Made by a program: the position numbers and the translations under genes
Notes under the pieces: model-generated
What the model was told of the DNA's origin: nothing
Database searches by the model: none
Seen by the model: the letters and a program-made list of their open reading frames with translations, nothing else
Part shown: piece after piece, positions 24,076 through 28,542 of the stretch
How positions within the stretch are numbered: position 1 is the stretch's first letter
Layout: each line of letters starts with the position of its first letter
Assembly (NCBI GenBank): GCA_018261735.1
Contig: JAGTRM010000009.1
Coordinates: 45,920-109,919 of the forward strand
Direction of reading: 5' to 3'
DNA length: 64,000 bases
From: Pseudomonadota bacterium
Lineage (GTDB): Bacteria; Pseudomonadota; Gammaproteobacteria; Burkholderiales; Chitinibacteraceae

Positions 24076-24105
24076 TTGCCAAAGCACGCAAATCAGGCTT
24101 ATAGT
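24076..24105 (+). promoter_or_regulatory. Promoter of the DAHP synthase leader
   Basis: TTGCCA (24076-24081) and TATAGT (24100-24105) are separated by 18 bp. The transcript would start near 24112, about 33 nt before the leader peptide. Confidence 0.65.
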
Positions 24106-24144
24106 CCTTGCACGATAACTCGTTTCATTACCGAACTCGATTCC

Positions 24145-24225
24145 ATGCACACCGTCCTGACCTGCCAGTTTTCTTTTTATGCATTTTGGTATCTCAGGCC
24201 GCTGACGGATCGAGAGGATAGGTAA
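24145..24225 (+). CDS. Aromatic-rich attenuator leader peptide
   Basis: 26 codons: MHTVLTCQFSFYAFWYLRPL followed by TDREDR and TAA. Residues 9-16 (FSFYAFWY) include three Phe, two Tyr and one Trp. It sits between a promoter and an intrinsic terminator just upstream of the DAHP synthase gene. A ribosome stalling on these codons when aromatic aminoacyl-tRNAs are scarce would leave 24201-24208 free to form the antiterminator. The ribosome binding site is weak. The peptide has no function beyond translation control. Confidence 0.85.
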   Translation: MHTVLTCQFSFYAFWYLRPLTDREDR

Positions 24226-24281
24226 CGCACGAGAAAAACCAAATTCCCCGAAAACCGTCAGCAGAGTCTGGCGGTTTTTTT
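24201..24281 (+). promoter_or_regulatory. Transcription attenuator (antiterminator/terminator) before DAHP synthase
   Basis: Segment GCTGACGG (24201-24208) is exactly complementary to CCGTCAGC (24255-24262), forming the antiterminator. The same downstream segment alternatively forms the terminator AAAACCGTCAG/CTGGCGGTTTT (24251-24261 with 24268-24278), followed by a T run. The two structures are mutually exclusive, and the leader-peptide reading frame covers the antiterminator arm, the standard ribosome-mediated design. Confidence 0.85.
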
Positions 24282-24349
24282 ATACCGCTCGACCAGACCG
24301 ACGTACCGGGACAACGCCCGATTGCGACAAGCCCTACTGGAGAGCCACC

Positions 24350-25438
24350 ATGCCACCCCATAGCCGTATCCGTGAATCCAAAGCCCTGATCCCGCCGGCG
24401 CAGATCATCGACGAATTCCCCTGCTCGCCCAAGGTGGGCGAACTCGTGCTCAATACGCGGCGCGCGCTGCACCGTATCCTGCACGGCGCGGATGACCGGC
24501 TGGCGGTGATCATCGGGCCGTGTTCGGTGCATGATCCGAAGGCTGCGATCGAATACGCGTCCCGCCTGGCCGAATTGCGCGAACGCTTGGCGGGCGAGCT
24601 TGAGATCGTGATGCGGGTCTACTTCGAAAAGCCGCGCACGACGGTCGGCTGGAAAGGTTTGATCAACGATCCGCACATGAATGGCAGCTTCGACATCAAC
24701 CACGGCCTGCGCACCGCGCGCGAGCTGCTGCTGAACATCAACGCGCTGGGCGTACCTACCGGCACCGAATACCTCGACCTGATGACGCCGCACTACGTAA
24801 CCGACTTGGTGTCCTGGGGCGCGATCGGCGCACGCACCACGGAATCGCAGGTTCACCGCGAAATGGCATCTGGCCTTCCCTGCCCGATCGGCTTCAAGAA
24901 CGGCACCGACGGCAATGTGAAAATCGCCATCGATGCCATGGGCGCCGCCTCCCACCCGCACCATTTCCTCTCGGTCGCGCCCGGCGGCCACAGCACGATT
25001 GTCTCGACCGCCGGCAACGAGGATTGCCACGTTATCCTGCGCGGCGGAAAGGCCCCGAACTACGATGCGGCCAGCGTCGATGCCGCCTGCGCCCAGATCA
25101 CCCGCAGCAACCAGCCCGCGCGCCTGATGATCGACGCGAGCCACGCCAACAGCGCCAAGAAACACGAGAACCAGATTCCGGTCTGCGCCGAGGTCGGCCG
25201 CCAGATTGCCGCCGGCGACGAGCGCATCATCGGGGTGATGGTCGAATCGAATCTGGTGGCAGGCCGGCAGGATGCCAAGCCCGGCTGCACGCTGACCTAC
25301 GGCCAGAGCATCACCGATGCCTGCATCGGCTGGAACGAAACCGAAAAACTGCTGGAAGACCTGGCGGCGGCCGTCGCACAACGGCGTGCCAAGCGGCTGG
25401 CGGTAGACGCCGTATGTGAATCGGCCCTGGCCTGCTGA
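24350..25438 (+). CDS. aroG: 3-deoxy-7-phosphoheptulonate (DAHP) synthase, class I
   Basis: 362 aa, condenses phosphoenolpyruvate and erythrose 4-phosphate in the first step of the shikimate pathway. Class I AroFGH features: LAVIIGPCSVHDPKAA, VMRVYFEKPRTTVGWKGLIN, GARTTESQ, GFKNGTDG and DASHANSAKKHENQ. GGAGA precedes the ATG. The attenuator leader responds to Phe/Tyr/Trp codons. Which amino acid inhibits the enzyme allosterically cannot be read here, so AroF or AroH naming is equally possible. The neighbouring convergent hisC shares a dyad terminator. Confidence 0.95.
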   Translation: MPPHSRIRESKALIPPAQIIDEFPCSPKVGELVLNTRRALHRILHGADDRLAVIIGPCSVHDPKAAIEYASRLAELRERLAGELEIVMRVYFEKPRTTVGWKGLINDPHMNGSFDINHGLRTARELLLNINALGVPTGTEYLDLMTPHYVTDLVSWGAIGARTTESQVHREMASGLPCPIGFKNGTDGNVKIAIDAMGAASHPHHFLSVAPGGHSTIVSTAGNEDCHVILRGGKAPNYDAASVDAACAQITRSNQPARLMIDASHANSAKKHENQIPVCAEVGRQIAAGDERIIGVMVESNLVAGRQDAKPGCTLTYGQSITDACIGWNETEKLLEDLAAAVAQRRAKRLAVDAVCESALAC

Positions 25439-25507: not shown

Positions 25508-26566
25508 TCAACCCACAATTTCGCGCAGTGCCGCCACCAACGCATCGCATTCCTGCGGCGTACCGATCGAAATGCGCAGGTACTGGTCGATACGCGGCAA
25601 CTTGAAGTGCCGCACGATGATCGCCCGTTCGCGCAGCTTGGCCGCCAGTTCTGCCGCATCGTGCCGCGGATGACGCGTGAAGATGAAATTGGCCGCCGAG
25701 GGAATCGTCTCGAACCCCAGCGCCGCCAGGTCGGAGGTCAGCTGCTCCCGGCTCGCGATTACCGCCTGACAGGTTTGCTCAAAATACGCAACATCCTCGA
25801 ACGCCGCGGCGGCGGCGGCTTGCGCCACGCGATCAAGCGGATAGGAATTGAAGCTGTTCTTCACACGCACCAGCGCCTCGATCAGCTCGGGCGAGCCCAG
25901 CGCCAGCCCGACCCGCATTCCGGCAAGCGAGCGAGATTTGGACAAGGTCTGCACTACCAAGAGGTTCGGGTATTTTTCGATCAGCGGCACGGCGCTGGTC
26001 CCGCCGAAATCGATATACGCCTCGTCGACGATCACCGGCTGGTCCGGGTGTTGTTGCAGCAAGGTTTCGACAGCCTGTAACGGCAGCAGGTGGCCGGTCG
26101 GTGCGTTCGGATTGGGGAAAATGACCGCACCACAGGGCCGGTTGTAATCTTCGATGCGGATCGAAAAATCCTCGGTCAGCGGCACGGTCTGGTAATCGAT
26201 GCCGAACAGCGCGCAGTACACCGGGTAAAAACTGTAGGTGATATCCGGAAACAACAACGGTTGCTCATGCTTCAGCAGCGCAGCAAACGCCAGCCCCAGG
26301 ACTTCGTCCGAACCATTGCCAACAAAAACCGCCTTTTCCGAAATACCGTAATACTTGGCCACGGCCGTCTGAACCAGCGCACTTTCGGTATTCGGATACA
26401 GGCGCAAGGCATCGCCCACCGCCGCCTGCATCGCAGCCAGCGCCTTGGGCGACGGGCCGTAGGGATTTTCGTTGGTGTTCAACTTGATCAGGTTGTCGAT
26501 CTTGGGCTGCTCGCCCGGCACATAGGGGGTGAGATCGCGGACAACAGGGCTCCAGAAACGGCTCAT
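25508..26566 (-). CDS. hisC: Histidinol-phosphate aminotransferase
   Basis: 352 aa, PLP-dependent fold I aminotransferase of histidine synthesis. [41 protein letters not shown] and the PLP lysine in [14 protein letters not shown] are visible. The start is the ATG at 26566; the frame continues upstream without a ribosome binding site. It is isolated from other his genes and stands next to the DAHP synthase gene. In many bacteria HisC paralogues also transaminate phenylpyruvate and hydroxyphenylpyruvate, so an aromatic role is conceivable. Confidence 0.93.
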
Positions 26567-26780
26567 GACGGGGGTCCAGGCACGGGAAAACCCGTATCTT
26601 ACCAAATGCCTGCAAATTCCCGGCACAGTACAAGTTGCTGCCCCGCCACACCGCGCAGAGTAAGCACCCAATATTCCCGATCAAGCTGTAAGATTTTCAG
26701 TAGACTTGCACGGTAGCTACTGTGCTTTAGCCGCATTCAAAAAAATAATTCCACAGGATTTAACAAGGAGGAGGACGCAA

Positions 26781-28456: not shown

Positions 28457-28542
28457 TGGTGCCGACAGTGAGACTCGAACTCACACAGCCTGTGGCCACT
28501 ACCCCCTCAAGATAGCGTGTCTACCAATTTCACCATGTCGGC
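28457..28542 (-). tRNA. tRNA-Leu (anticodon GAG)
   Basis: Class II tRNA with 3' CCA encoded (28457-28459). The acceptor stem GCCGACA pairs with TGTCGGC. The D arm contains GGTGAAATTGGTAGACAC. The anticodon stem CTATC/GGTAG holds loop TTGAGGG with GAG at 28506-28508. A long variable arm and TTCGAGTC T loop follow. The GAG anticodon reads CUC and CUU codons. No duplicated 3' end that would suggest an integrated element is visible nearby. Confidence 0.95.

Follow-up and report, generated by a model that had tools for sequence, protein, structure and literature searches.

The DAHP synthase gene in the window, by which we mean the whole 64,000-nucleotide (64 kb) stretch of DNA analyzed here, is preceded by a leader open reading frame (ORF) rich in aromatic codons, a segment able to pair as an antiterminator and a predicted terminator, which together very probably act as a ribosome-mediated transcription attenuator sensing charged aromatic tRNAs. 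Comparison shows the same predicted layout upstream of orthologues in many Burkholderiales. The leader and the hairpins that the original prediction described upstream of the gene are real, and the switching itself, including ribosome stalling, the choice between hairpins and read-through, is predicted. As far as could be seen, regulators of this kind are known, and the present family, its layout without a Shine-Dalgarno sequence and its transfer are undescribed. If the attenuator is real, a single tRNA-charging switch would govern entry into the shikimate pathway in bacteria belonging to Burkholderia, Paraburkholderia, Cupriavidus, Bordetella, Achromobacter and Massilia and in their relatives. 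The family would also lend itself to natural comparisons of attenuators that lack a Shine-Dalgarno sequence, whether a protector stem is present or not, and to following the joint movement of a leader and the gene it regulates. In Cupriavidus it could serve as a sensor or an engineering target.

Architecture of the Leader Region

The features of the region are summarized in Table 1. The promoter, the 26-codon ORF and the exact 8-nt complementarity between segments 2 and 3 that had been proposed are all present in the sequence, and the competing terminator hairpin with its T run is visible in the fold, where a simple terminator scanner reported 0 sites. The promoter is the sole promoter-like site between 23900 and 24400, and the match alone is weak evidence, since 0.5 such sites are expected in shuffled sequences. 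The TATAGT box is located 39 nt before the leader ATG, and an identical box at identical spacing occurs in the relative L005. The predicted terminator ends 68 nt upstream of the DAHP synthase gene.

Table 1. Coordinates of the leader region and the downstream gene in the window.
Feature	Coordinates	Strand	Details and basis
Sigma-70 promoter, predicted, TTGCCA-18-TATAGT	24076..24105	+	-35 TTGCCA 24076-24081, spacer 18 nt, -10 TATAGT 24100-24105; 10/12 consensus matches; start expected ~24112
Leader peptide ORF, 26 codons, without Shine-Dalgarno	24145..24225	+	ATG 24145, TAA 24223-24225; peptide MHTVLTCQFSFYAFWYLRPLTDREDR
Regulatory codon run TTT TCT TTT TAT GCA TTT TGG TAT	24169..24192	+	F S F Y A F W Y, residues 9-16
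Segment 2, GCTGACGG, antiterminator 5' strand, within leader ORF	24201..24208	+	Sequence, fold, alignment
Segment 3, CCGTCAGC, pairs with segment 2 or, partly, segment 4	24255..24262	+	Fold, alignment
Intrinsic terminator hairpin and T run, predicted	24251..24281	+	Arms AAAACCGTCAG (24251-24261) and CTGGCGGTTTT (24268-24278) around a loop; segment 4 CTGGCGG 24268-24274; T run 24275-24281; fold, alignment
DAHP synthase, type I (PF00793), 362 aa, AroG-like	24350..25438	+	PF00793 E 5.3e-95

The whole region folds at -48.6 kcal/mol (z -2.77 against shuffles) and the antiterminator stretch 24185-24266 gives a z of -2.54; no fold signal was detected for the stretch of the leader ORF alone (24146-24240, z +0.65). 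In the window, a protector stem (1:2) like that of E. coli trp was not seen (duplex p 0.065), and the 5' part pairs with segment 2 at 0.06, compared with 0.13 in shuffled sequences. The features found in common with attenuators are clustered codons for products of the pathway, a terminator supported by sequence and fold, and a mutually exclusive antiterminator supported by sequence and computed folding. Two features of the E. coli trp type are absent, namely the 1:2 hairpin, which is lacking in the window and most of the family, and the Shine-Dalgarno sequence of the leader.

The Leader Family at DAHP Synthase Loci

DAHP synthase loci were collected from 41 genomes around the window and from a public species collection (best 80 of 589). 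A leader ORF rich in Phe and Tyr together with a terminator of the form CCGNC...GNCGG-T was found at 74 of the 110 loci L004-L113. The element is absent from the other 36, of which 20 belong to other genera of the window's family, nine cluster beside Alcaligenaceae in the tree (L079, L081, L092, L093, L096, L098, L099, L106, and L109), and the remaining seven are others.

Phe is present in all 74 leader peptides and Tyr in 73, and these two residues form the constant signal. The original proposal of a leader mixing Phe, Tyr and Trp codons needs tempering for Trp, which occurs in 42 of the 74 and is lineage-specific; a three-amino-acid sensor was therefore rejected as the rule of the family. 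Codon choice differs between the leaders and the genes that follow them: Phe is encoded by TTT in 269 of 333 cases in the leaders (TTC, 64), as opposed to 54 of 482 in the DAHP synthase genes (TTC, 428), and TAT makes up 106 of 185 Tyr codons in the leaders versus 93 of 461 in the genes. This bias fits a selection for slowly read or unpaired codons.

A Shine-Dalgarno interaction of -4 kcal/mol or lower was calculated for 3 of 73 leaders (L090 being left out), whereas it was found for 72 of 73 DAHP synthase genes; the value for the window leader was 0.1. All 11 Bordetella, Achromobacter and Pigmentiphaga loci displayed, from a total of 19 such leader loci, carry an extended -10-like box 7-8 nt upstream of the leader ATG. 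The box is TGCTAGAGT in L078, L082, L085, L086, L087, L089, L094, L101, L104, and L107 and TGCTACGAT in L083. Given this distance, a leaderless mRNA for the leader peptide is predicted in those loci.

Conservation of the Competing Helices

Alignment A1 comprises 27 leader loci, i.e., 26 of 32 dereplicated leaders and L005, and does not include L007, L008 and the six divergent leaders L009, L071, L076, L090, L095, and L112. With the reservation that pairing and covariation figures from A1 are flattered because these six dereplicated leaders are omitted, 90.2% of cells pair in the 2:3 helix (13-61% when slid), with a covariation score matched by 3 of 500 shuffles, and 95.6% pair in the 3:4 helix, with a score matched by 0 of 500. 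The number of pairs with changes on both sides was not above shuffles, 80 of 500 being as high for 2:3 and 151 of 500 for 3:4. One pair of the 2:3 helix is A-U in the three members of the genus (the window, L005, and L006) and G-C in 23 others. The A-U change costs a U-G wobble in the terminator, and since the pair is retained at this price, the antiterminator pair appears to be kept.

Duplex, masked-ribosome and 5'-part pairing tests covered 35 of the 74 leader loci. The 2:3 duplex reached z < -1.65 in 25 of the 35 and fell short of this threshold in 10. A trp-type 1:2 stem was detected by duplex in only two of the 35 loci, and in seven (L006, L007, L044, L060, L063, L066, and L076) pairing between the 5' part and segment 2 exceeded that of shuffled sequences. 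A family-wide 1:2 protector stem was rejected on these counts; a protector-like state probably exists in some lineages and is lineage-specific at most. The design of the phe and trp operons, to which the region had been likened, is thus kept in its leader, antiterminator and terminator, but its classical 1:2 stem is not family-wide.

Folding of the Nascent RNA Around a Masked Ribosome

The nascent RNA was folded up to segment 3 in an equilibrium model with the ribosome masked. In the window, the probability of 2:3 is 0.98-1.0 while the A-site is anywhere from F9 to W15, 0.38 at Y16 and ≤0.20 beyond; the masking model itself imposes the fall as soon as segment 2 is covered by the ribosome. Calculated in this way, the switch occurs where the aromatic run ends. 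The peak 2:3 probability over the aromatic codons is above 0.5, and the minimum after them below 0.2, in 34 of 35 loci, the exception being L085. Across the 35 loci, 2:3 is at or above 0.5 on 204 of 256 aromatic codons and on 178 of 564 others.

When the ribosome is parked on the stop codon, segment 2 is uncovered and 2:3 stays at or above 0.5 in 14 of 35 loci (0.03 in the window); these 14 loci would therefore need kinetic coupling. With no ribosome in the model, 19 of 35 loci have a 2:3 probability below 0.5 (0.98 in the window), so the two-state picture fails for the family as a whole. In view of these no-ribosome folds and of the 5'-part pairing in seven of the 35 loci, two-state wording is limited here to the window.

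Proposed Mechanism and Alternatives

In the window, ample supply of charged Phe-, Tyr-, and Trp-tRNA would allow the ribosome to clear the aromatic run and to cover segment 2 while segment 3 is being made, whereupon 3:4 would form and transcription would stop at about 24281. If one aromatic tRNA were short, the ribosome would stall on codons 9-16 and leave segment 2 free; 2:3 would then form first, and read-through into the DAHP synthase gene would follow. As no trp-type 1:2 stem is seen in the window, the role of the switch probably falls to the translating ribosome itself. A protector stem of the trp kind may be present in some relatives.

A nascent-peptide arrest like that of tnaC or erm, in which the peptide would stall the ribosome on a small molecule and not on a scarce charged tRNA, is considered highly improbable. 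The near constancy of the peptide KFYFYFFWYLRPLADREG across the Burkholderia and Paraburkholderia loci would suit it, but the family keeps mainly the aromatic richness, with 49 distinct peptides in 74 loci (e.g., FSFYAFWY, FYFYFYGF, and FQFYFYFSY), and the unchanging PLADRE tail, which overlaps segment 2, is accounted for at the RNA level. The preference for TTT and TAT also seems to fit slow decoding. It is almost certainly not the case that the hairpin serves as 3' terminator to the upstream GGDEF/EAL gene, or is unregulated, with the ORF being incidental. Although the hairpin lies ~260 nt past the stop of that gene, the promoter match is weak by itself and the scanner missed the terminator, the leader, segment 2 and the terminator are all kept in relatives, while, within the stretches covered, the upstream gene was found only at the window's own locus among 11 searched. 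Moreover, with six aromatic residues in eight, the leader ORF is unique among the 1046 short-ORF ends of the window (runner-up, five), and chance origin of the layout is untenable because it is conserved in relatives. A metabolite-binding riboswitch, a T-box or a protein-binding leader, for which a terminator/antiterminator pair alone would do, deserves next to no credence, as the conserved part includes a coding run of aromatic codons and no Rfam match at gathering score was obtained over the leader in the window or in 20 related loci.

Relation to Known Attenuators

In E. coli, the attenuators trpL and pheL each sense one amino acid and control an enzyme of a terminal branch, and trpL has a Shine-Dalgarno sequence and a 1:2 pause/protector stem, with its stop codon lying ahead of segment 2. 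The leaders of trpL-trpEDCBA and pheL-pheA share with the present family a leader peptide with regulatory codons and a 2:3 antiterminator competing with a 3:4 terminator. Unlike trpL, the window's family has no general 1:2 stem, and its ORF runs through segment 2. The ilvB leader peptide of Corynebacterium glutamicum was reportedly found by Morbach et al. in 2000 to be formed without a ribosome binding site; this lack is shared with the present leaders, and the differences lie in the amino acids (branched-chain), the gene and the phylum.

The attenuator of aroR-aroF in C. glutamicum, behind which the 2014 study of Neshat et al. is said to stand, is the closest known system. According to the relevant passages of two articles, an aromatic leader peptide attenuates a DAHP synthase gene there, and a Phe-Tyr-Phe leader peptide before the gene is the shared feature (PMC11802643; PMC4046766). 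In the same passages, read-through is described on limitation of Phe, the system responds to Phe and not to Tyr, and no Trp is named. The actinobacterial aroR is likened to the window's family by this description, and so far as it is described, the window's family differs in that its F/Y(/W) run is longer and its segment 2 lies within the ORF. Attenuation had been regarded as unusual for this enzyme against the repressor control of enterobacteria; the contrast fits the account of the E. coli DAHP synthases in the passages available from PMC11802643, but an attenuated DAHP synthase gene was already known from C. glutamicum.

In an open-access library that leaves most subscription journals outside, no description of a DAHP synthase leader attenuator in Burkholderiales was found. 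Term searches of the main text revealed no DAHP synthase leader in the articles on small RNAs (sRNAs) of Burkholderia and Bordetella (PMC4035088; PMC3521395; PMC3110155) or in PMC2965389 and PMC1262725. A transcript of such a leader could be among the intergenic sRNAs listed in PMC4035088.

Distribution of the Element

A covariance model, R1, was built from alignment A1. In the window's own genome it finds one strong copy of 106 bits, the next best scoring 30. It matches three of three genomes of the genus and three of 43 genomes of the family, the latter being identical to the former, so that 0 of 40 other family genomes carry a match. Counts from runs of more than 40 genomes are lower bounds, because stricter filters apply: at least 60 of 250 order genomes (E ≤ 0.001; 57 full length) and at least 5 of 274 class genomes (E ≤ 1e-5), two of the latter outside the order. 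In the family of those two, at least 14 of 60 genomes match. The check proposed with the original prediction, conservation of the aromatic codons and of both hairpins in relatives, was passed in the genus and order genomes counted here as well as at the 74 of 110 loci described above.

A DAHP synthase gene lies downstream in 29 of 29 matched loci L122-L150, of which L126 and L149 coincide with L007 and L009, as well as in four of four loci L153-L156. L153 and L154 (genomes G448 and G296), which come from a family not belonging to the order, have this leader and terminator ahead of DAHP synthase. The occurrence of the element in that family suggests a further transfer. A partial second DAHP synthase gene was observed right after the leader-controlled one in two genomes of one family (L137, 2778-3143; L139, 1-348), both second copies being cut by the end of the stretch.

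Identity with a family of Rfam, Pfam or NCBIfam was rejected, since no match was obtained for the leader, with the proviso that peptides this short are poor queries for protein families. Trp_leader and Phe_leader, which we take to be Rfam family names, gave no match here at gathering score.

Origin of the Gene and Its N-Terminal Motif

The window DAHP synthase falls inside a clade of Burkholderia, Paraburkholderia and Trinickia (98/96), its exact place being weakly supported. The tree omits 26 of 112 rows, namely 25 near-copies and L003, and L006 forms a long branch in it. On account of this placement and of the absence of the element from 40 of 40 other family genomes, the simplest reading is that gene and leader were acquired horizontally in the window's genus; old paralogy with losses is a possible alternative. 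The genome itself contains three PF00793 matches. Besides the window gene there is a copy on C16, which groups with the window's family and is not preceded by a leader; L003 is a third, distinct paralogue.

The solved sequences nearest to the window enzyme are those of Phe-regulated AroG, whose N-terminal Asp-Asp pair presumably contacts the feedback inhibitor. We take this pair to be Asp6-Asp7. The alignment of the two begins with window Arg6 at AroG chain residue 9, and the window therefore has Pro-His where AroG would have the pair. A T-D-D-like motif is kept at the N terminus of 71 of 74 leader-bearing enzymes, and the exceptions are the three members of the genus, the window, L005, and L006, in which Thr-Asp-Asp is replaced (PPHSRIR and similar; window 24350-24373). 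Four further close proteins, P0003-P0006, are also without the Asp-Asp motif. At loci without the leader, 34 of 37 enzymes match the motif pattern and two of the other three keep Asp-Asp, leaving only L010 without it. The main text of PMC11206799 does not mention Asp6.

These observations raise the rather doubtful possibility that the attenuator has replaced allostery in the window's genus. A cassette of leader and DAHP synthase gene would have come from a Burkholderia-like donor to stand beside a native isozyme whose gene is leaderless, the Asp-Asp pair would have been lost, and the attenuator without a Shine-Dalgarno sequence would use the translating ribosome, and not a protector stem, as its switch. 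If so, loss of the pair would leave flux through the enzyme set by aromatic tRNA charging alone.

In the window's genus, taken as Formivibrio (Chitinibacteraceae), the DAHP synthase gene is next to hisC in three of three genomes. The neighbor in the window is an aminotransferase ORF at 25508-26671 on the minus strand, convergent to DAHP synthase and beside it in all three genomes, which we take from its sequence to be hisC-like. Across the window, Rfam yields a single match at gathering score, a tRNA gene at 28460-28542 on the minus strand.
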